NCBI RefSeq assembly: GCF_027923765.1
Contig: NZ_AP026709.1
Span: 1,607,501-1,671,500, forward strand
From: Pseudodesulfovibrio nedwellii
Lineage (GTDB): Bacteria; Desulfobacterota; Desulfovibrionia; Desulfovibrionales; Desulfovibrionaceae
Reading direction: 5' to 3'
DNA length: 64,000 nucleotides
A program made the translations under genes and the position numbers. Positions 10,101 through 53,238 of this stretch are shown here, one piece after another. The notes under the pieces were generated by a model, which was not told the origin of the DNA, made no database searches, and saw only the letters and a list, made by a program, of their open reading frames with translations. The first letter of the stretch is position 1, and every line of letters begins with the position of its first letter.

Positions 10101-10436
10101 ATGTCATAAATCTCCCTCAGATATACATCATGCAAAGCATCAACCAAACCACCACCCCGGAACATGGCTCGGATACAACCCGCGCCTACAAATTTCTTTC
10201 GCTTCTTCCAAGACTCATTTTCTCGTACAGGCTTCGGCTTCGCCGCAGAAAACTTGCTGTAAACGCGACCTCGACTGCCTGATTATTCCCCGACACCCCA
10301 CGCCTGACACTTCCACCTGCTCGATAAAGCGGACTGCATTCGGTTTCACAGGATGCCGTATACTTTCGTGCCATAGGCTATAAACCACTGACCTCCGCTG
10401 ACCAAAAATCACGGAACAACAGAAAGGATTACAATA
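10101..10436. other. 336-base gap without a supported gene
   Basis: The stretch between the glycosyltransferase and the NhaC antiporter holds no hairpin with a T-run and no clear promoter. A 50-codon frame at 10130-10282 encodes a very basic peptide, but it has no ribosome site. Confidence 0.5.
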
Positions 10437-11762
10437 ATGGATCAACAATCAACACCGCGCGGAAGCGCACTGCTCCCACTCCTGTTCTTTCTCGCTCTGT
10501 TTATAGGAACAGGATCGTATTTATCCGCACAGGGTGTGAGTATGGCCTTTTATCAACTGTCCGCAGCTGTGGCCATTCTTCCGGCCATAGCTCTCTCCCT
10601 TGCCATGGGTAAAGGAAAGCTGGACAGCAAGATCAACATTTTTCTCAAAGGTGTCGGTGACATCAACATCGTCACCATGTGCATAATCTACCTGTTGGCA
10701 GGAGGATTCGCCTCAGTCGCCAAGGCCATCGGTGGCGTGGATGCCACCGTCAATCTGGGCCTGACCTTCATCCCGGCAGAACTCGTCCTTCCGGGGCTGT
10801 TCGCCATCGCCGCTTTTGTTGCCACGGCCATGGGAACATCCATGGGAACAATTGCCGCCATTGCCCCCATTGCAGCCGGAGTTGCGCAACAGACCGATAT
10901 TTCCAGCGCTGTCCTCATGGGGACCATCGTGGGCGGTGCTATGTTCGGCGACAACCTCTCCATGATCTCGGACACCACCATCGCCGCCACCCGTACTCAG
11001 GGATGCGCCATGAGCGATAAGTTCAAGATGAACGTACGCATTGTCCTACCAGCGGCATTGGCAACACTTATACTGCTCGGTCTATTCGGCTCGGCGGGTG
11101 GCGTCACCCATGTCGGCGATTGGGAATTCATCCGGGTACTGCCCTATTTGGTCATTCTGGGATTGGCGATTGCGGGCGTGAATGTCTTTGTCGTTCTGGC
11201 CTCGGGAATTGTACTAGCCGGAGTAGTCGGTCTCTATGCCGTACAGAATTACTCCCTACTTACGTTGTCCAAAGATATCTTCGCGGGTTTTACCGGCATG
11301 CATGAAATCCTCGTTCTGTCCATGCTCGTAGGCGGTCTTGGAGAACTCATCCGTTACAACGGCGGCCTGCAATGGTTGCTCGAAAAGGTCAACGCCCTCG
11401 CACTCAAGGCTGGACGCGGCAATAAACGAAGATCCGGTGAATTCGGTATTGCAGCACTGGTCTCACTGGCCGATGCCTGCACGGCAAATAACACGGTCGC
11501 CATCATCCTTACCGGACGACTTGCCAAGGAAATCGCAACAGATACCGGCGTTGACCCACGCCGTAGCGCAAGTCTTCTGGATATATTCTCCTGCATTGTT
11601 CAGGGCGTGACCCCATACGCGGCTCAAGTTCTCCTCGCAGGTTCCATCGCCGGAATATCCCCCGTGGATGTTGTTACGAGCAACTGGTACTGCCTCGTAC
11701 TTGCCGGAATAGCTATCGTGGCTATCGTCACTGGCTGGCCTACACTCAAGAAAAAAGCGTAA
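10437..11762 (+). CDS. NhaC-family Na+/H+ antiporter
   Basis: A 441-residue membrane protein with about eleven hydrophobic segments. Motifs of the NhaC family are clear: GTSMGTIAAIAPIA near residue 133 and GAMFGDNLSMISDTTIAATRTQG beginning near 164, which includes the acidic and polar residues of the ion path. A second helix pair contains SLADACTANNTVAIILTG. The family exchanges sodium for protons or, in some members, malate for lactate. The ATG at 10437 follows AAAGGA at good spacing. It is a single-gene unit ended by a strong terminator. Adjacent genes do not indicate a specific organic substrate. Confidence 0.82.
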   Translation: MDQQSTPRGSALLPLLFFLALFIGTGSYLSAQGVSMAFYQLSAAVAILPAIALSLAMGKGKLDSKINIFLKGVGDINIVTMCIIYLLAGGFASVAKAIGGVDATVNLGLTFIPAELVLPGLFAIAAFVATAMGTSMGTIAAIAPIAAGVAQQTDISSAVLMGTIVGGAMFGDNLSMISDTTIAATRTQGCAMSDKFKMNVRIVLPAALATLILLGLFGSAGGVTHVGDWEFIRVLPYLVILGLAIAGVNVFVVLASGIVLAGVVGLYAVQNYSLLTLSKDIFAGFTGMHEILVLSMLVGGLGELIRYNGGLQWLLEKVNALALKAGRGNKRRSGEFGIAALVSLADACTANNTVAIILTGRLAKEIATDTGVDPRRSASLLDIFSCIVQGVTPYAAQVLLAGSIAGISPVDVVTSNWYCLVLAGIAIVAIVTGWPTLKKKA

Positions 11763-42850: not shown

Positions 42851-44245
42851 CTATTTAAAGCTCCCGGCGTTCACATCAAGCCGCTTGAGAATTTTCTGCA
42901 AAGCGACTCTGGACAGCCCACTCTGACGAGCGGCTTTGGAAACATTACCGCGTGTACCGGAGAGTAATTCTTCGACATATGTACGGGTGAAGTCATCCAC
43001 CACTTTTTCCTTGGCATCCTTATAGGGCGTCAAACCCTGCGATTCATCGCCAGGAAGCCCTTCAAGACCTTCCACGAGACGAAGGTGAACCAGTTCCAAA
43101 GACTCACTGGAAGAAAAAACGGCCAATCGACGGATGAAATTCTGCAATTCCCGAACATTTCCGGGCCAATTTTTTGTGGTCAGATACGCCACGGCGTCTG
43201 GTGCCATGGCCTTTGGGTTCACCTTCATTTCTTCGCAGGAAATAGTCAAGAAATGGCGGGCGAGTATAGCAATGTCATCATTACGGTCACGAAGTGCTGG
43301 CACATTCAGATTAAGAACATTAAGACGATAATAGAGGTCTTCACGGAAGCTGCCGTCCTTAATCTTCTCCTCAAGAGGCTGGTTGGTGGAGGCAAGAATA
43401 CGCACGTCCACCGGAACGGTCTTGCTGGAACCAACTGGACGGATCTCTCCTTCCTGCAATGCTCGAAGTAACTTGGTCTGAATACCCGGAGAAATGTCAC
43501 CGATTTCATCAAGAAGCAGAGTACCTCCGTCCGCTGAAACAAAAATGCCTTTGTGATCCCGGTCTGCGCCGGTGAACGCCCCCTTGACGTGACCAAACAA
43601 TTCACTTTCCAGCAATTGATCGGGAATAGCCGGACAATTGACCGTCAACAACGGCTTTCTGCTCCGTCCGCTCAACTGATGAATGGTTCGGGCCACCAAC
43701 TCTTTACCTGTCCCGGATTCTCCACGAATCAAAACGGTATATTCGGACTCGGCCACGGCTGCCACGCCATCTTTGAGCCGACGTATAGCAGAACTCTCAC
43801 CCACGAATTCATTGGGACCGATCTGCTTGGCGAGCAATTCCTGAAGACGGGCGTTTTCCCCAAGAAGACGACTGCGTTCAAGTCCCCGTTCAACAACCTG
43901 AAACAGGTCTTTAGGCTCCACCGGTTTTGTCAGGAAATCGTAGGCCCCGATTTTTAACGCATCCACTGCGGTCTCCACAGTCCCATAAGCAGTCAACATG
44001 ACCACACTCATGTCAGGATGCATTTCTCTAGCCCGACGAAGTAATTCGACACCATCCATGCTCGGCATGTTCAAATCAGTCAGCATCAAGCCAAAGACAT
44101 CGTTTTCCAATGCAGCTATGGCCTCTGGCCCGGAAAGCACGGCCATGATATGTTCATCTGGATACTGTCTGCCCAGCAAACGAGCGAGTCCGGTGGCAAA
44201 ATCCTTTTCATCATCAACGATGAGTATGCCTATGGCGTTTGTCAT
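42851..44245 (-). CDS. NtrC-family sigma-54 response regulator
   Basis: A 464-residue regulator. The receiver (residues 1-125) has VDDEKD, the phospho-acceptor D57 in LTDLNMPSMDG, the threonine in MLTAYG and the lysine in LTKPV. The AAA+ domain has Walker A GESGTGKE, the GAFTGA loop and Walker B LLLDEIG. The Fis-type helix-turn-helix (GNVSKAARQSGLSRVALQKI) ends the protein. Its start overlaps the stop of the partner kinase gene by four bases (ATGA). The likely target is the divergent sigma-54 promoter at 46885. Confidence 0.93.
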   Translation of the reverse strand: MTNAIGILIVDDEKDFATGLARLLGRQYPDEHIMAVLSGPEAIAALENDVFGLMLTDLNMPSMDGVELLRRAREMHPDMSVVMLTAYGTVETAVDALKIGAYDFLTKPVEPKDLFQVVERGLERSRLLGENARLQELLAKQIGPNEFVGESSAIRRLKDGVAAVAESEYTVLIRGESGTGKELVARTIHQLSGRSRKPLLTVNCPAIPDQLLESELFGHVKGAFTGADRDHKGIFVSADGGTLLLDEIGDISPGIQTKLLRALQEGEIRPVGSSKTVPVDVRILASTNQPLEEKIKDGSFREDLYYRLNVLNLNVPALRDRNDDIAILARHFLTISCEEMKVNPKAMAPDAVAYLTTKNWPGNVRELQNFIRRLAVFSSSESLELVHLRLVEGLEGLPGDESQGLTPYKDAKEKVVDDFTRTYVEELLSGTRGNVSKAARQSGLSRVALQKILKRLDVNAGSFK

Positions 44246-46671
44246 TGTTCGCTCCGAGTGGAATCGCTGTTGACCGGAAGATGCACTGTAAAGACAGCAC
44301 CATTATCATTTTCCATCTCAATGCTGCCGCCGATGTCCTGGGCCAATCCATAAACCACGGCCAACCCCAGCCCTGTCCCTTTACCCACTTCCTTGGTGGA
44401 AAAAAACGGATCGAACAACTTCAGCATGTCCCCTTCCGGGATACCTGGACCGTTATCTGCCACCCGAACATCAATGGTATCTGAATCAGATTTATAGTGT
44501 GCTGAAACAATAATATGCCCGACCTTTTTCGTCACCGCATCCAATGCATTTTTGAGCAAATTGGTAAGAATTTGCTCCACAGCCTGTTCATTGGTAATGA
44601 TAGAAGGCAAACCGTCTTCGACTTCCGGCACGACTTCCACGCCCTTCTTCTCTGCTTGCACACGGAAGATGTTGATGGCATCAGCGACAACCCTGCCCAC
44701 ATTCAAATCAACCGGCTCCGATTTCTTGGGACGCGCAAAATTGAGCAAATCCTGCAGAACAGTCTCGGCCTGCGAAGCATGCTTGATGATAATCTCGGCG
44801 TCAGAAGATATTTCCTGTCGAGACTCAGCTCCCCGCAGCAACTCGGCATAGCACTTAATAACACCTAACGGATTATTAATTTCATGGGCCAACCCTGCGG
44901 CCAATTGACCAACAGTTGCCAACTTTTCACTCTGCTGCATAGTAGCAAGCATCCGCTTTTCCTGTGTCACATCACGCACATAAACAACACCATGTGCTTC
45001 TTTGGCAGCACCTTCCGCCACAGGAAAAACACTGATCGAAAAGGACCTGCCATCTGCGGTTTGCACCTCTCGGGCCATGGCCTCTCCATGTTCCAGCGAA
45101 GACTTCAGTGGACAATTCTCAAACACGCCGCCCTGCCTAAACAAAGTGGAACAGGCGGTGTCAGCCACGGCTCCCCCAAAGGACACGCACAAGGAGCGAG
45201 CGGCTTCATTAGCCAAAACCACACCGCAAGCGCCGTCCATAAGTAAAAGAGGATCACTGATGCCTTCGACAATCGCCTGGAGCATGTCTTTTTGACGAAG
45301 AAGATTGTGCAAGGCCGCCAGATTTTCCATGGCGATGCCAAGCTGCTGACCCAACGCCCGCAAAACGTTCCGGTCCTGATTCGTTATTATGGTTCCCTCA
45401 TCCCAGATTAAACACAAAATTCCCTCGGAAGACGCATCACTGGCCCAGACCGGAATGTATGCCTTGCCCGGCTCATAATACGGCTCAACTTCAGTAATAA
45501 TTTCTTTCCAGTTATGAGGAAGATCGGGCTTGGGCGTCTCTTCGGGCCACGTATAATATGTCTGGGAGGCGAGCATGCAGATAAAGCCGCCAAGACTGGC
45601 TCTGAACCGCTGCACAATAAGTGGCAAAGAGTGTTGCCACATCTGCCGTCGAGTATGACTTTTATTCAACCCATCAAGAAGCTGCACAAACAAACCGACA
45701 TCCGAACGCCGTTCCTCGGCCTCAAGTTTCAATTCACCGGTACGGACCTCGACCATCTGCTCAAGATTCTCCGAGTGCTGACGCAACTGATAGTTCATCT
45801 CATGGACATGATCGCCAAGCTCTTCAAGCCCCTGAACAACCTCTTCTATTTCGTCAACATTTTCCAACTTTTCCATAAATCCGAGTTCCTCGTCTTCCTG
45901 AAAAAGCTTCCGGAACTTGTCAGTCAACCTATGTAAGTTGGTCATGATAAGACGATTGAAAAAGATCTGAACCAAAGCAAAGAAAAGCAGCATGCCACCG
46001 CCATAGAGAGCGGCATAGCCGATGGTGGCTTCACGAATCTTCCCGACCGCTCCGTCAATAGGAACGCCGACAACGACCAAACCAGCAATATCACCCAACG
46101 TATGACCGAATCCTCGCTCCGTTCCATACCGTTCAAGCAGGACAGGGGGAGAATCCTCCGGCACGCCGTGACACGTCATGCACGATTTTTTAAACTCCAC
46201 AGGACGTGCCTTGACGAAAAACTCCTTACTATCAATCTTGCGGTACCCTTCCCAATATTCCTTACCCGGATTTTTCCTGAAATATGCCAGGAGTTCACGC
46301 TCACTGTCCTTGATTTCAAAGAGCGGATTACGCGCATTATCCGCTACCCGACGATAATAATACTCCGAATGACGCAAATTGAGCCGATCCATAATGGCTC
46401 GAGAAATATACGATGAAGACATGGCCTCGATAACAAACTCCCCTTCCGGCAAAGTCTGATACATTTTCGGCCTGAGTATTTCCCGCACATACCCCTGCAC
46501 GCTGGACACCTGATTCAGCACAAGATCAGCCTTATCCTTGACCTGAGTATCCAGAAGTGAACTGAGATGAAAATACAAACTCGAAGCGAAAAACAAGCCC
46601 AGCAAAAAAACGATGGTTCCCAATCCAAGAAGGAACTTGGCCTGAAGGTTTTTTGGTCCGAAATTACCCAT
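44242..46671 (-). CDS. Membrane sensor histidine kinase with CxxCH haem-binding periplasmic domain
   Basis: An 809-residue kinase. The first membrane segment is at residues 10-35. The periplasmic region to about residue 215 matches the DUF3365 (Tll0287-like) family and carries a c-type haem motif CMTCH (C164, C167, H168). A second membrane segment is near 225-245, then a HAMP-like linker, a GAF-like region near 345-465, a PAS-like region near 475-575 ([13 protein letters not shown]) and the kinase core ([40 protein letters not shown]). Haem domains of this kind sense redox or gases. It is co-transcribed with an NtrC regulator. Confidence 0.88.
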
Positions 46672-46814: not shown

Positions 46815-46832
46815 TGCTAACTCAAGTTAGCA
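46815..46832. promoter_or_regulatory. Palindromic upstream activating site for the NtrC regulator
   Basis: Perfect eight-base arms TGCTAACT and AGTTAGCA with a two-base centre CA. It lies about 53 bases before the -24 box of the yeiH promoter and in the divergent region of the sensor-kinase operon. It is the best candidate binding site of the NtrC-family regulator. Confidence 0.65.
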
Positions 46833-46884: not shown

Positions 46885-46900
46885 TGGCACGCACCTTGCC
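46885..46900 (+). promoter_or_regulatory. Sigma-54 (-24/-12) promoter of the yeiH operon
   Basis: TGGCACG, four bases, then TTGCC, a near-perfect match to TGGCACG-N4-TTGCW. Transcription should start near 46912, leaving a leader of about 36 bases with an AGGAGAGG ribosome site. Confidence 0.88.
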
Positions 46901-46947: not shown

Positions 46948-48588
46948 ATGGCTCAAGCAACTGTCGGACGTCCCGACAACACACCCGTATGGATCATCAG
47001 TGGTATTCTACTGGCATACGGCGTTCTCGTTTCCTCGGGAGCACTGACTGGTCTTCTGACCACATTCAAAGTCCATAAGGCAATGGACCTGATGCAGACC
47101 ATGGCTTTCGTGGGCGGCGGACTTGGTGTCGCTACTGCGATGCTCAGGCAAGCACGTTGGAATAAACCCCTCAACAACTTTGACACCTTTGTACTGGAAA
47201 CCATTCCGGGCATTCTGTTCATTGTGGCCTTGGCCATGGGCATCCGCTGGTTTGCAGAGCCGATGGTCAAACTCGCAAGTTCAGCCATGGTTCCAGCCCT
47301 TGGCTTCAAGCTCTACAAGGTACTGAACCTGAACTATGTTGTCCTCGGTATTCTCGTCGGTATCATCATCACCAACAGCTGGGGTATCCCAAAATTCGCA
47401 GCATCAGGCGTCAAAACCGCCCGCTTCGTGTTGAAGATGGGTGTTATCCTGCTGGGTGCCCGTTACTCCTTTGCAGAACTGGCAAAGCTGGGCATGGTTT
47501 CAGTCTGGATGATCGGCTTCTTTGTTCTGGGTACCGTATTCTTCGTCCTGTTCCTGGGTAAAGTTTTCAAACAACCTAAGACCATGACTGGCGTCCTGTC
47601 CGCAGGCATGGGTGTTTGCGGCGTATCCGCAACTGTTGCCTGCGCCCCGGTCGTCAAGGCCAAATGCTCCGAGATGGCCTACACCATCGGCACCATCCTC
47701 GGCTTTGGTATCCTGTGCATGTTCGTCTTCCCCACCGTTGGTAAAATCGCAGGCATGAACGCTACCCAGTTCGGCGCATGGGCCGGCACCGGCATCCTGA
47801 ACTCTGCTCAGGTCGCTGCCGCCTGTCTCGCATTCAACGCTGTTGACATTAAAACCCTGAAAGTCGGTGAAATCTTCAACATCACCCGCGTTCTGTTCCT
47901 GCCCGTCATCGTTCTGGTGCTCGCCACATGGTACGGCAAGCAGTCCGGTCAAAAGTTGAGCTTCAAGGAAGTTGTCATCGACAAGTTCCCCATCTTCATC
48001 ATCGGCTTCCTTATCCTGTTCTTCATGTCCTCCCTGGGTCTGTTCTCACCAGCAGATCACTACAAGGGCAAATACCTCGACTTCAGCTACAACGAACGCA
48101 CCGAAGTCACTCCTGAAGAACTGACCATACTGAAAGCTGCGGCTGTCGCAGGCATTCAAGGGCTTAACGTGCAGGAAACCGCATCGTTGGATAACCTTGT
48201 CAAACAGCACCAGATCGCCGGTAACTTCGACGATCGTGGCGACAAAACCAAGTTCGACACTGTGGCCCGTGAACGTATGGCCGGTCTGGAATCCATGATC
48301 GCCCGTGCAAAGGGTGGCGAAGTGACGATTTCCACAGACGTCAAATCAGCACTCTCACACGCGATCAAGCAGGTTCACAAAAAATCCAAGACTATTGTTA
48401 CCCTGACCAACGCCATGATCTGGTTCTTTGCTTATGGTCTCATCGGCCTTGGCATGCAGATCACAGGCAAGTCCCTTGCTCAGGCAGGCGGCTGGCCGCT
48501 GGTCATGGGTGGTATCTCCGGCGTTGCCAAGGCGACCCTGTCCTTCATCGTCGTCATGTACTTCGTCAAGGACGTCGTCCTTCACTAA
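46948..48588 (+). CDS. yeiH: YeiH-family putative sulfate/anion exporter with a long hydrophilic insertion
   Basis: A 546-residue membrane protein with about eleven hydrophobic segments. The family signature GVLSAGMGVCGVSATVACAP lies at residues 215-234. YeiH proteins are annotated as putative sulfate exporters. The usual length is about 340-350 residues; here a soluble block of about 110 residues (roughly 368-480) separates the last membrane segments. That block is charged and contains helix-like KQVHKKSK. It is the first gene of a sigma-54-controlled operon with a universal stress protein and small membrane proteins. The start ATG follows GGAGAGG. Confidence 0.85.
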   Translation: MAQATVGRPDNTPVWIISGILLAYGVLVSSGALTGLLTTFKVHKAMDLMQTMAFVGGGLGVATAMLRQARWNKPLNNFDTFVLETIPGILFIVALAMGIRWFAEPMVKLASSAMVPALGFKLYKVLNLNYVVLGILVGIIITNSWGIPKFAASGVKTARFVLKMGVILLGARYSFAELAKLGMVSVWMIGFFVLGTVFFVLFLGKVFKQPKTMTGVLSAGMGVCGVSATVACAPVVKAKCSEMAYTIGTILGFGILCMFVFPTVGKIAGMNATQFGAWAGTGILNSAQVAAACLAFNAVDIKTLKVGEIFNITRVLFLPVIVLVLATWYGKQSGQKLSFKEVVIDKFPIFIIGFLILFFMSSLGLFSPADHYKGKYLDFSYNERTEVTPEELTILKAAAVAGIQGLNVQETASLDNLVKQHQIAGNFDDRGDKTKFDTVARERMAGLESMIARAKGGEVTISTDVKSALSHAIKQVHKKSKTIVTLTNAMIWFFAYGLIGLGMQITGKSLAQAGGWPLVMGGISGVAKATLSFIVVMYFVKDVVLH

Positions 48589-48851: not shown

Positions 48852-49295
48852 ATGAAGCATATACTTCTCGCAACACACGGCACCCCCGGCGCACGCAAAG
48901 CTGAAAAGCTGGCCCGCCAATGGGCAGACCAGTACGGCGCAAAAGTCACCGTCCTTTCAATCATCAATGAAGCATGGGGCGATATGACCTGCGACGACTG
49001 GTTGAATACCTCCACCACGCGTAATGTCTTCGGTTCCTATGTAGCGAGTGAAATCGCCAAGGAAATCGATACGGTCTGGGACCGTCTGCGCACGGATTTT
49101 GATGGGGTGGAACTCGATTTTCTCAGCAAAGGCGGCAAGCTCGACAACGTGCTGGCCGAAGCCGCTGTCAAAATCGAGGCCGATGTAGCAATCATGGGTG
49201 CCTGGCAGAAAGAACAGGCCCCCGGCTTCAGAGACCGCTTTGAAAACAAGCGTCTGCACCCGCAGATGCCATGCCCACTGGTGGTGGCACCATGA
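48852..49295 (+). CDS. Universal stress protein (UspA family)
   Basis: A 147-residue single-domain stress protein. It opens HILLATHGTPGARKAEKLA, the beta-1 strand and first helix of the family. The ATP-binding GxxG-type loop near the C-terminus is not well conserved (MGAWQKEQAPGFR), so it may not bind nucleotide. It overlaps the next gene by four bases (ATGA). It is part of the yeiH operon, so it is likely made when sulfur-anion export is needed. Confidence 0.88.
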   Translation: MKHILLATHGTPGARKAEKLARQWADQYGAKVTVLSIINEAWGDMTCDDWLNTSTTRNVFGSYVASEIAKEIDTVWDRLRTDFDGVELDFLSKGGKLDNVLAEAAVKIEADVAIMGAWQKEQAPGFRDRFENKRLHPQMPCPLVVAP

Positions 49296-49903
49296 CATAC
49301 GCATCCGAAACCATAAACCGTCGAGACCGCGCTCACGCGGACGTTGAAGAACTCCCCAGACCCGGCGTCTGGATGGAGACCAACCTTCCTTGGAACACAG
49401 CCTTCTGGAGCGACCTCAAAGGGAAAACCCTGATGAGACTCAACCCTCACTGGCATGTTGAAAAAGACAAAACCAGCGAAGGCTTCCCCGTGGAAGACGT
49501 TCTGGTGGAAGCCGAGTTCCGGGCAACCCCTGAACTAACAGCCACAGCGGACACCTTTCAGGCATCCTTCCCGGAAATCGGCCTGACCCTATCTGCCCGC
49601 AAATGCGAAGACGGTGCCAACACGGCCCTTTCCTTCACCATGGACGAGGTAGAGAACTGCCCCTTCACAGCTGAAGATGCCGGACGCACCATGCAATACT
49701 GGCTGCCCAGCCTGCGTGAATACTACCGACTGCACGAGTCCAACTCACTCAAACATCGCGCATGGCGTTTCTTCATGAACAAAGTCATGCTGACCATGAA
49801 CCCCACCCAGCGCAGAATCAGTGGCTTCATGTTCAAACTCACCGTCCTCGAATGCCTGTTCATCGTCATCCTTGGCGTGGGCTGGTTCTACTACGGAGCC
49901 TAG
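49292..49903 (+). CDS. Hypothetical 203-residue protein with a C-terminal membrane segment
   Basis: I do not recognise this protein. It is soluble for about 180 residues, with a helix-rich middle and several aromatic residues near the N-terminus (PGVWMETNLPWNTAFWSDL). Residues 180-200 (FKLTVLECLFIVILGVGWFYYG) are a membrane anchor. Its start overlaps the stress protein stop by four bases (ATGA), so translation is coupled. It ends nine bases before the small membrane protein gene. It probably associates with the YeiH exporter or the small membrane proteins. Confidence 0.75.
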   Translation: MTYASETINRRDRAHADVEELPRPGVWMETNLPWNTAFWSDLKGKTLMRLNPHWHVEKDKTSEGFPVEDVLVEAEFRATPELTATADTFQASFPEIGLTLSARKCEDGANTALSFTMDEVENCPFTAEDAGRTMQYWLPSLREYYRLHESNSLKHRAWRFFMNKVMLTMNPTQRRISGFMFKLTVLECLFIVILGVGWFYYGA

Positions 49904-49912
49904 GAGAAAATC

Positions 49913-50209
49913 ATGCTTAAAAATTTCTTTCACCACTTTATTGTTGGCCTCGGCGCACTTGGATACCTGCTGGCAGTCCCGGTGTTGTTGTATCAATACC
50001 TCGGCCTCATGAACAACTGGCCGCACCTGTTCCTCAGCATCGTATATGATTCTGCCGGAGACTGGTGGCTGGATGTTAACTGGCAGGCTCCCGCTCTATG
50101 GATTGCCGTAGGCTTTATCGTCTTGGCCGCCGCGACCCACGCCTTCTTCCGACGCAACGACACGCTCGGATACAGAGAAGCTGAAGTTCCAAGCGCACAC
50201 GGATTCTAA
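49913..50209 (+). CDS. Small membrane protein of the yeiH operon
   Basis: A 98-residue protein with two membrane segments (residues 8-33 and 58-78) and a polar loop between containing several aromatic residues (DSAGDWWLDVNWQ). The C-terminus is polar and ends at HGF. It belongs to no family I recognise. It is nine bases downstream of the previous gene in the yeiH operon. A role in the exporter complex is a guess from context. Confidence 0.75.
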   Translation: MLKNFFHHFIVGLGALGYLLAVPVLLYQYLGLMNNWPHLFLSIVYDSAGDWWLDVNWQAPALWIAVGFIVLAAATHAFFRRNDTLGYREAEVPSAHGF

Positions 50210-50389
50210 TTTTTATGATGTTCGGAAGATTGCCTCCTCCTTCTTTTCGAACACCCAAAAAACCTCATTGCCTCTCGAGGTTGGCACTCCGAGAAAGTTG
50301 CGGTATTCTTCACCCCAAAGCCGCAACTTCCCGGAGTCCCTCTCGTCCGACCCATTTGATCCAGACTCCGCCCAGCCCAAGGACATCAC

Positions 50390-51670
50390 ATGTGGAGCGC
50401 ACTGGAAAACGCTGCTCTTCGAGAGAGCCTCCCTTCTCCGCTCAAACCGGCGCAGTCCATTCACGACATCCTTATAGCCGGACAATTGGACCGGGGCAGA
50501 TACAACCTGCATCACCTCGGCAGACGCCGCTCCAAACCATATCTTCTCAAACAATTCTACAGCATCGACACAAACGCTTTTCTACGCTGGCAGAATGAAG
50601 CCCGATTCATTCCTCTACTCCCGACAGAAGGATACGCATGGCCCTGTGAAGAATGGCGTGGTGGACTGATCACCCCATTTCCAGAGGGACTTCCGATTGA
50701 TGAATGGCTTGCTCAGGGTGGACATCCTATGCAGACACGGCTTGAAGTCGCGGCCATGCTGGCCGGACAATTAGCACGCCTCCATGCTTCCGGCATCGCA
50801 CATAGATGCCTCTCACCCGCATGTGTTCGTATCGACAAGAAAGGAATTGTCATCACGGATTTCGGCTCCGCCCGATGTGAACAGTGGGATGATTTCTGGA
50901 CGGATTCAAGCATGAGTCCGAACGACGCGACCTGTGCTTCCCCGGAATCACTCAAGGGCGAAGAATGCGGTTATGATGAAGACATCCACGCGTTTGGCGC
51001 TATCCTTTATCTCCTGCTCGCTGGCAAAACAGCATTCAATTCCATCAAACTCATGCTGCGCCCGCTCTTTCCGGGACAGATCCCGCCAGACAAACTCTCC
51101 ACAACGGCCGACGTTCCTGATCCGATTCGGGCTCTTGCTGCAGCCTGTCTGTCTCTCGCTCCATCAGACAGACCAAGCATGGATGAAGTCGCCAGACAAA
51201 TGGCGCACACTTGTCCTCATTCCACTTTGGATAATAAAACAATTTCCATCCCAAGCGGCAATGCTTCGACCAAAGACAAAAAAAAGATTTTAGTCTTCGT
51301 GAGTGATGACAACCGATCCGTACCAATTTTCGACACAGCCTTGAAATTGGCCGAGGCCAAGCCATCCGTCTTTCTCTTTGTCGGCCTGATCCCCTACAAC
51401 CTGCCAAGCGGCCACACCGAACGTTTCACAGGAAATCTTTTCAAGAAGATGAGCCAAGGGTTACTCCGGTGCAGGGGAGCCTCTCTCGCCTGGAGCTTGC
51501 GCGTACTCACAAGCGCTGACCCAGAAAAAACAGCAGTGGATTTTGTCAGGCAATACAGGCCTGATCTGATCCTCCTCGGCGAAAATGGAAAAAGAAACAA
51601 ACGGACCATACGACGCGGCTTTCATACACATCTTGCCGCAGAGAATGTACGCATCCACTCCGTTCGATAA
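50390..51670 (+). CDS. Pseudokinase fused to a universal-stress-protein-like domain
   Basis: A 426-residue protein. Residues 30-275 show a Ser/Thr kinase fold: lysine K54 in YLLKQFY, glutamate E70, a catalytic-loop position reading HRCLSPACV (138-146), the DFG motif at 157-159, PESL near 185 and DIHAFG near 198-203. The HRD aspartate is replaced by cysteine, and the usual lysine and asparagine are serine and cysteine, so it is probably catalytically dead or divergent. Residues 298-426 (KKILVFVSDDNRSVPIFDTA) look like a UspA-type domain. The ATG at 50390 has AAGGA upstream. It lies 180 bases after the small membrane gene and probably joins the yeiH transcript. Confidence 0.75.
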   Translation: MWSALENAALRESLPSPLKPAQSIHDILIAGQLDRGRYNLHHLGRRRSKPYLLKQFYSIDTNAFLRWQNEARFIPLLPTEGYAWPCEEWRGGLITPFPEGLPIDEWLAQGGHPMQTRLEVAAMLAGQLARLHASGIAHRCLSPACVRIDKKGIVITDFGSARCEQWDDFWTDSSMSPNDATCASPESLKGEECGYDEDIHAFGAILYLLLAGKTAFNSIKLMLRPLFPGQIPPDKLSTTADVPDPIRALAAACLSLAPSDRPSMDEVARQMAHTCPHSTLDNKTISIPSGNASTKDKKKILVFVSDDNRSVPIFDTALKLAEAKPSVFLFVGLIPYNLPSGHTERFTGNLFKKMSQGLLRCRGASLAWSLRVLTSADPEKTAVDFVRQYRPDLILLGENGKRNKRTIRRGFHTHLAAENVRIHSVR

Positions 51671-51760: not shown

Positions 51761-52060
51761 ATGTTTATTATTTCGTTGACCTATATTTGTGACCTCACTG
51801 AAATCGACCGTTTTCTGGACGAACACGTTGCCTATCTAAAAGAAGAATACGCACGCGGTCATTTCATCGCGTCCGGCCGCAAGGACCCCAGAACCGGCGG
51901 TATAATTCTCGCCAAAGCCAAATCCCGTACCGAACTCGATACGATTCTCGCAAAAGATCCATTCCACCGAGAACATCTTGCCAAATATGACATTCAGGAA
52001 TTTATTCCGACCATGACAGCTCTAGGATTGGAAGCCCTACTTGACCTGCAGGCTGAGTAA
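51761..52060 (+). CDS. YciI-family protein
   Basis: A 99-residue protein. It opens MFIISLTYICDLTEIDRFLDEHVAYLKEEYARG and has GHFIASGRKDPRTGGIILA near residue 33, a pattern of the YciI dimeric alpha-beta barrel family. Histidine and aspartate in the motif HVAYL... and the glycine-rich turn are typical. The family's biochemistry is poorly known; some members degrade chlorinated or other aromatic compounds. It is a single gene with AAGG-type ribosome site near GGGAACTGCC. Confidence 0.85.
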   Translation: MFIISLTYICDLTEIDRFLDEHVAYLKEEYARGHFIASGRKDPRTGGIILAKAKSRTELDTILAKDPFHREHLAKYDIQEFIPTMTALGLEALLDLQAE

Positions 52061-52194
52061 AGCTCACAGCAACCACACGGAAGACTGTTTCGCAAAAAAA
52101 TACACCCTCAACAAGTCAACTATTTCTTTTAATTGCAAACATCATGACTGCACTCTATGTTTAGAACCATTAATACAAGCAAAGGAGTCCATAC

Positions 52195-53238
52195 ATGTTT
52201 CGTAAAATACACTTATTCGCACTTATAATCCTAACGCTTCTGCTTCAGGCAACCCCTGCCGTTTCCTGCACACGTTTCATATATACGGCTGACGACAACC
52301 AGGTGTTAACCGGCCGCTCCATGGACTGGCTGGAGGACCTGCACAGTGATCTATGGGCGTTCTCTCGCGGCATGGAACGCGACGGTGGCGCGGGTAAAGG
52401 GTCCATTAAATGGACAGCAAAATATGGCAGTGTCATTGCCTCCGGGTACGACGCGGCCTCAGCAGACGGCATGAATGAAAAAGGTCTGGTTGCCAACCTG
52501 CTCTATCTGGCTGAATCGGAATACGGCTCACTCAACAACAAGCCGGGGCTGTCCGTGGCTGCATGGGTACAATATGTACTTGATAATTACGCCACAGTGA
52601 ATGAAGCCGTGGACTCCATACGCAAAGAACCATTTCGTATCGTGGCTGCCAAACTCCCCAACGGCTCTGCTCCGACTCTGCATCTGGCCATTTCCGACCC
52701 GACCGGCGATTCCGCCATTTTCGAATACATCAAAGGCAAACTGACCATTCATCATGGCAAGCAGTTCAAAGTCATGACCAACTCTCCAATATACGACAGG
52801 CAACTTGCACTGGATGATTATTGGCAGGAAATCGGTGGTCTGACCATGCTCCCCGGCACCAACAGAGCCAGTGACCGATACGTCCGCGCCAGCTTTTATG
52901 TAGATGCCCTGCCCAAGTTCAAAGACAATCGCATGGCCGTATCCGCCGCATTCAGTGTCATCCGCAATGTCTCTGTTCCTATCGGCATCACCACCCCGGA
53001 TCATCCGAACATCTCCACCACTATCTGGCGCTCCGTCTCAGACCAGAAGAACCTCATTTATTATTACGAATCCGCTATCTCTCCCAATATTTTCTGGATC
53101 GATTTGAAAAAAATCGATTTCAGCTCGACCCAAAAACCTCAAAAAATCAGCCTGCAAGGGCATCCGATCTTCGCTGGTGATGTGTCTGAACATTTTGTTC
53201 CGACAAAACCTTTCAAGTGGATGGCTCCTGAGAAATAA
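52195..53238 (+). CDS. Choloylglycine hydrolase / penicillin V acylase-family amidase
   Basis: A 347-residue Ntn-hydrolase. The first 24 residues are a signal peptide ending AVS, so cleavage exposes C25 (CTRFIYTADD), the catalytic N-terminal cysteine. Conserved residues follow: R in TGRSMDW, N in GMNEKGL, N in VMTNSPIYDRQL and R in TNRASDRYVRA. The family cleaves linear amides such as bile-salt conjugates, penicillin V and N-acyl homoserine lactones. The enzyme is exported, so it may act on quorum signals or environmental amides. It is a single-gene unit with a terminator behind it. Confidence 0.88.
   Translation: MFRKIHLFALIILTLLLQATPAVSCTRFIYTADDNQVLTGRSMDWLEDLHSDLWAFSRGMERDGGAGKGSIKWTAKYGSVIASGYDAASADGMNEKGLVANLLYLAESEYGSLNNKPGLSVAAWVQYVLDNYATVNEAVDSIRKEPFRIVAAKLPNGSAPTLHLAISDPTGDSAIFEYIKGKLTIHHGKQFKVMTNSPIYDRQLALDDYWQEIGGLTMLPGTNRASDRYVRASFYVDALPKFKDNRMAVSAAFSVIRNVSVPIGITTPDHPNISTTIWRSVSDQKNLIYYYESAISPNIFWIDLKKIDFSSTQKPQKISLQGHPIFAGDVSEHFVPTKPFKWMAPEK

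Follow-up and report, generated by a model that had tools for sequence, protein, structure and literature searches.

Organization of the exporter cluster

The DNA stretch analysed here, 64,000 nucleotides of the Pseudodesulfovibrio nedwellii chromosome, will be referred to as the window, and all coordinates are positions within it unless a locus is named. An open reading frame on the plus strand (50390-51670) encodes a protein of 426 amino acids, which will be referred to as the pseudokinase-Usp protein and is supported by its translation, a Pfam kinase match, orthologues and dN/dS analysis. The frame begins with ATG, and a ribosome-binding site (AAGGA) is located at 50379-50383. The gene is the sixth and last of a cluster of fixed composition, found at this locus and at 18 others, in which a divergently transcribed histidine kinase gene with a response regulator gene behind it is followed by a sigma54 promoter and the genes for an exporter, a universal stress protein (Usp), a 210-aa protein, a 98-aa protein and the pseudokinase-Usp protein.

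By Pfam, the two regulatory genes on the minus strand encode a response regulator consisting of a receiver, a sigma54 activator domain and a Fis-type HTH (42851-44245) and a sensor histidine kinase with a Tll0287-like sensor (CxxCH; 44242-46671), the latter conserved with the cluster. Between the histidine kinase gene and the exporter gene lies the palindrome GCTAACTCAAGTTAGC (46816-46831, plus strand), a candidate binding site of the regulator; in several further clusters, a similar palindrome likewise precedes the exporter gene. The exporter gene is preceded, at a distance of 63 bases, by a predicted sigma54 promoter, TGGCACGCACCTTGC (46885-46899, plus strand), and the corresponding pattern (TGGCAC-N5-TTGC) was matched at positions -53 to -81 in 24 out of 27 other clusters. 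No sigma54-like promoter was found directly 5′ of the pseudokinase gene in ten genomes, displaced copies of the gene included.

The exporter and the separate Usp, to which a preliminary description of the window had pointed as neighbours of the pseudokinase gene, were both verified by Pfam searches. The exporter (46948-48588, plus strand; 546 aa) is a long PSE/YeiH-type putative sulfate/sulfite exporter, matching PF03601 above threshold (E = 1.3e-47) and scoring 92.9 bits against TIGR00698, below the cut-off of 232.6. This long subfamily is 68-98% identical among clusters and was found only in the clusters described here; other genomes searched contained at best shorter relatives with 43-46% identity over residues 82-367. 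Hydropathy analysis revealed a hydrophilic stretch at residues about 371-482. The Usp gene (48852-49295, plus strand) encodes 147 aa (Pfam Usp, E = 2.3e-5) and is followed on the same strand by the genes for the conserved 210-aa protein (49271-49903), with one C-terminal membrane segment by hydropathy, and for the small 98-aa membrane protein (49913-50209), with two such segments and conserved in the clusters. Searches of both proteins against Pfam and NCBIfam yielded no match above threshold. The two membrane-attached proteins travel with the long PSE exporter and are candidate exporter subunits.

Among 297 genomes of the order, the 210-aa protein is encoded in 25, namely in 20 of the 21 carriers of the pseudokinase and in 5 of the 276 non-carriers (Fisher p = 2e-25, uncorrected for kinship). 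Nevertheless, the cluster can do without the pseudokinase gene, which is missing from five genomes that carry the core cluster (G011, G193, G208, G226 and G269). Three genomes carry the core cluster with the pseudokinase gene at another place (G015, G031 and G009), and one (G170) possesses the pseudokinase without the long exporter. Two displaced pseudokinase genes (loci L042 and L047) adjoin a gene for a PAS/sigma54-activator regulator (L042:5506-8376 and L047:5447-8344), and L042 carries an additional Ser/Thr kinase gene (10314-11681, minus strand). Downstream of the pseudokinase gene in the window, YCII-like and choloylglycine-hydrolase-family proteins are encoded (51761-53238), an arrangement seen in close relatives only; G011, from which the pseudokinase and YCII genes are both missing, has kept the hydrolase.

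Degenerate kinase fold and C-terminal domain

The N-terminal part of the protein (residues about 22-275; 50453-51214, plus strand) shows the Ser/Thr kinase fold that had been proposed for it. Pfam Pkinase (PF00069) matched residues 115-269 above the gathering score (E = 1.7e-12), and a family profile compared with the PDB matched PknB, StkP, B-Raf and other kinases, the matches starting at profile position 15-36 and ending at about 289. The motifs listed in the preliminary description were all found at the residue numbers given. The equivalent of the VAIK lysine, K54 (LLKQF; 50549-50551), is kept according to the alignment, as is the DFG motif (residues 157-159; 50858-50866), which is absent from sister clades, and DIHAFG forms residues 198-203. 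A further motif, WDDFW (50885-50899), was recognized by alignment in the activation segment. The glycine-rich loop retains a single glycine, which holds for intact members of the family as well.

The catalytic loop reads HRCLSPACV (H138-V146; 50801-50827), and alignment with intact relatives showed that the D-x-K-x-x-N pattern of active Ser/Thr protein kinases is absent, with C140 at the position of the aspartate, S142 at that of the lysine and C145 at that of the asparagine. The loss of these three residues noted previously is thus borne out, and the protein, a kinase fold lacking at least one catalytic motif residue, falls under the sequence definition of a pseudokinase.

Full-length orthologues are present in about 24 genomes of the Desulfovibrionales, sister strains included, belonging to the same genus, to other genera of the family and to other families of the order. 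Their identity to the protein studied here is 88, 75, 60 and 54-46%, falling to about 27-29% at the far end; a copy 98% identical occurs in a metagenome-assembled Pseudodesulfovibrio genome (L031). A phylum-wide search with the family profile returned matches to the kinase domain only, among them a protein of G625, a genome outside the order. Further kinase-Usp proteins without the HRD aspartate, which the preliminary description had suggested looking for, are present among the orthologues: the catalytic loop is degenerate in all 20 non-intact members compared, and the aspartate is lost in 17 of them. Retention in this set amounted to 3/20 for the HRD Asp, 0/20 for the Lys, 2/20 for the Asn and 9/20 for the DFG Asp, and the Lys is lost in all members compared but two, which are of the intact type. 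In the relatives the aspartate position is taken by S, G, N, A or R, so that a sequencing error is excluded as the cause of its loss.

Ranked by variability within the kinase domain, the HRD Asp, Lys, Asn and DFG Asp columns fall between the 48th and 72nd percentile. Invariant, by comparison, are H138 (the HRD His), P185 (the APE Pro), D198 and G203 in alphaF, and the alphaI Arg-Pro with R261, and D168 and W170 of the WDDFW motif are unchanged in every Desulfovibrionales member, whether intact or degenerate. Altogether 21 positions are invariant across sequences that are only 27-33% identical at the far end. With structural residues, D168 and W170 invariant and the catalytic columns variable, it is the fold and one feature of the activation segment that have been preserved and not catalysis.

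It could be argued that the protein has remained enzymatic, whether as an atypical kinase or through other chemistry such as AMPylation or glutamylation, and acts by means of K54, E70 and D157. The subclade to which it belongs indeed keeps K54 and the alphaC glutamate E70, and mostly D157, and kinase folds classed as pseudokinases are known to have other activities, for example the polyglutamylase SidJ (PMC12599244). However, D166 is not replaced by any conserved acidic residue: the orthologue alignment was inspected for a relocated catalytic acid and none was conserved, E88, D168 and D198, the acidic residues that do not vary in the kinase domain, lying outside the catalytic loop and being common to the intact members of the order. 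Moreover, the Lys, Glu and Asp are jointly lost in sister clades that possess the same cluster, where R, Q and R, H or E occupy the three sites (A at the second site in one member), and another pair of orthologues has S at the Lys site. A remaining enzymatic activity consequently appears improbable to us.

The C-terminal domain (residues 298-426; 51281-51667, plus strand) had been described as UspA-like, and this assignment is retained as probable, Pfam giving it no match above threshold. Pfam Usp (PF00582) reached E = 0.055 here, and in 5 of 20 sequences the values ranged from 0.055 to 0.035 at best, all below the cut-off. Low-confidence models of the domain show alternating strands and helices in a beta-alpha-beta pattern, as in the HUP fold. 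When the single-sequence model (mean pLDDT 54) was aligned to PDB chains with VIA-align, the ten best rows were all Usps (Z 7.3-9.2); the c-di-AMP-bound KdpD domain is among the fold matches. In the relative from G625, the domain at the same place exceeds the Pfam Usp threshold (E = 4.4e-6). It is these fold matches of the model, together with the clear Usp domain at the same position in G625, that lead us to consider the domain probably Usp-like. Foldseek searches with the C-terminal model retrieved mixed Rossmann-like folds, none with E < 0.001, and a sequence search of the PDB with the C-terminal profile gave nothing meaningful. Profile matches to the Usp of the operon (p = 0.0078) and to that of G625 (p = 0.0063) were discarded, as chance controls reached 0.0024. 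For the whole protein, AlphaFold2 with a two-sequence input reached a pLDDT of 33, and the model was left uninterpreted.

The role suggested in the preliminary description was that of a nucleotide-sensing scaffold. In such a protein, the state of interaction would be set by ATP or a different nucleotide occupying the kinase domain, the Usp domain or both. The two parts of the suggestion fared differently. The scaffold is consistent with the invariant fold residues and WDDFW motif and with the drift of the catalytic residues, whereas nucleotide sensing would be possible in the subclade of this protein only. There, K54, E70 and mostly D157 are kept, so that ATP binding is possible; the Usp-like domain of the protein itself shows the glycine spacing of the ATP motif G-2x-G-9x-G-(S/T) (G397, G400 and G410), and Usp domains of other proteins bind nucleotides, as in the KdpD domain mentioned above. 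Nevertheless, the motif continues with Phe instead of Ser or Thr, most orthologues lack its second Gly, and the glycine-rich loop of the kinase domain has one glycine left, although this is likewise the case in intact members. As sister clades have lost the ATP-site residues, a function shared by the whole family would require no ATP in the kinase domain, unless functions have diverged. We therefore regard nucleotide sensing as an unlikely basis of the protein's function.

Probable origin from intact kinases and selection

Intact counterparts are found at the same position of the cluster. Two deep-branching Desulfovibrionales from another family of the order (G041 and G057) encode an intact kinase there, with HHDLKPEN and DFG and with the Lys and Glu in place. 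Outside the order, G625 possesses the same cluster, comprising the regulator, the histidine kinase, a 91-aa ORF, the exporter (68% identical), the Usp and a membrane protein, followed by a 648-aa protein that combines an intact kinase (HLDLKPEN/DFG, E = 3e-42) with the Usp domain described above. After it come a metallophosphatase gene (L132:11134-11874) and the gene of a second Ser/Thr kinase, fused to a Tll0287-type sensor like that of the cluster's histidine kinase (L132:11894-13609). This second kinase reads HHDLRPQVL and DMG, with Lys changed to Arg and Asn to Val, and may represent one more kinase of this system that has partly degenerated.

In a tree calculated without the catalytic columns, the 21 degenerate proteins group together (support 81/94). 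Mapped onto it, the Lys column shows a single change, the HRD Asp column three or more and the DFG Asp column four or more; a single clade for all proteins lacking the Asp was rejected (AU p = 6e-6). In single lineages the Asp may have reverted, for instance in G012, whose relative G006 has Asn at this site. The kinase tree broadly agrees with that of the exporter, histidine kinase and regulator, which argues for mainly vertical inheritance, and the intact state of the outgroup members points to loss rather than gain as the direction of change. An active kinase-Usp fusion has thus apparently turned into a pseudokinase inside a stable operon.

Loss of catalysis might simply have left a decaying gene, a remnant in the course of being discarded. 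Such decay would be in line with the absence of the gene from several genomes and with the rate of change of the pseudokinase-Usp protein: no other protein of the cluster evolves faster, except that the 98-aa protein does so in the most distant comparison. In addition, the orthologue of G006 (L005) is shortened by an in-frame TAG near the C-terminus, and that of G009 (L018) shows an apparent frameshift near the N-terminus. However, comparison with the two nearest relatives that could be used, 88% and 75% identical, yielded NG86 dN/dS values of 0.13 and 0.14 for the gene, with both domains constrained; the exporter gene gave 0.04-0.07. The gene is therefore clearly constrained and not decaying, and pseudogene decay was rejected on dN/dS. 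Intact frames in more than 20 genomes and the 21 invariant positions also oppose this explanation, which we consider very improbable.

Proposed role and relation to known systems

We favour, with a probability of roughly 0.6, the reading that a genuine pseudokinase maintained by selection is joined here to a Usp-like domain, and that the protein would serve a sulfur-oxyanion exporter module as a regulatory or scaffold subunit without catalytic activity. Judging from the sequence comparisons, its ancestor would have been an intact kinase-Usp fusion, encoded even then in a sigma54-controlled operon with a PSE/YeiH-type sulfur-oxyanion exporter at its centre; the protein would since have given up the ability to phosphorylate and would now act as a soluble subunit. 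We speculate that the surface formed by the activation segment and alphaC, together with the Usp domain, binds the Usp of the operon, the two small membrane proteins or the exporter through its hydrophilic region, where residues about 371-482 may offer one docking surface. The pseudokinase-Usp protein would thereby adjust exporter activity under sulfur-oxyanion stress, be it by sulfite, sulfate or analogues such as molybdate. The substrate of the module is inferred from published work on homologues.

In Salmonella, yeiH is the main sulfite-resistance gene (PMC12880088). The exporter described here shares the transporter family with YeiH (PF03601/TIGR00698), the role in sulfite resistance being that of the Salmonella gene; it differs in belonging to a 546-aa subfamily below the TIGR00698 cut-off, and YeiH is under LysR-type control by the adjacent gene yeiE. 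Similar in make-up is the D. vulgaris cluster DVU0539-DVU0545, which responds to molybdate, some of its genes giving protection and others doing harm by their presence (PMC10102598), and whose regulator activates the DVU0542 promoter (PMC3333781). The PSE transporters of D. vulgaris have no proven substrate (PMC4641369). Compared by make-up, both clusters contain a divergent histidine kinase with a sigma54 response regulator, a Usp, a PSE transporter and a small transmembrane protein, whereas the D. vulgaris cluster has a second Usp (DVU0545), a different gene order and no Ser/Thr kinase described for it.

Usps encoded with or acting on transporters have precedents in Rv2623, which regulates the transporter Rv1747 (PMC5549992), and in TeaD, linked to TeaABC (Schweikhard 2010, as cited in PMC9453808). 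Rv2623 and TeaD have no kinase domain, and the transporters belong to different families. Fusions of kinase and Usp domains have been known since 2005 from Mesorhizobium, Bradyrhizobium and Nitrosomonas (PMC1262709); these were described as kinases, the Nitrosomonas protein being of the ABC1 type with an N-terminal Usp, unlike the C-terminal Usp-like domain and degenerate kinase found here. A survey of Desulfovibrionaceae Usps lists fusions to histidine kinases and transporters and, in the passages covered, none to a Ser/Thr kinase (PMC8401546).

Seven families of bacterial Ser/Thr pseudokinases have been reviewed (ActPs1-3, GLW, CP1, DYD and DLHK), along with EssB/YukC (PMC12599244). With these, the pseudokinase-Usp proteins share the kinase fold, degraded catalytic motifs, occurrence in many genomes and presumed non-catalytic roles; they differ in the C-terminal Usp-like domain, the exporter operon and the existence of intact members at the same position. 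The loop HRC-LSPAC differs from GLW when compared by eye, and the review mentions neither Usp nor Desulfovibrio-type proteins. In the part of the literature covered, we found no description of a pseudokinase-Usp family. We tentatively suggest, at somewhat less than even odds, that these proteins represent an undescribed pseudokinase family, in which an intact kinase-Usp fusion of the operon lost the catalytic Asp repeatedly and, without leaving its position, became a non-enzymatic regulator that controls a sulfur-oxyanion exporter.

Most bacterial pseudokinases await testing, and the gene context suggests a function for only a few. In the present case the context is provided by an exporter cluster of the sigma54 type that is conserved in sulfate reducers and that published work on homologues ties to sulfite resistance and molybdate stress. 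Because intact members take the same position in related genomes, a comparison of intact with degenerate proteins within one operon can test what the kinase fold does once catalysis is lost. If our proposal is correct, living members of both states would make the switch from enzyme to scaffold testable in a single gene context.
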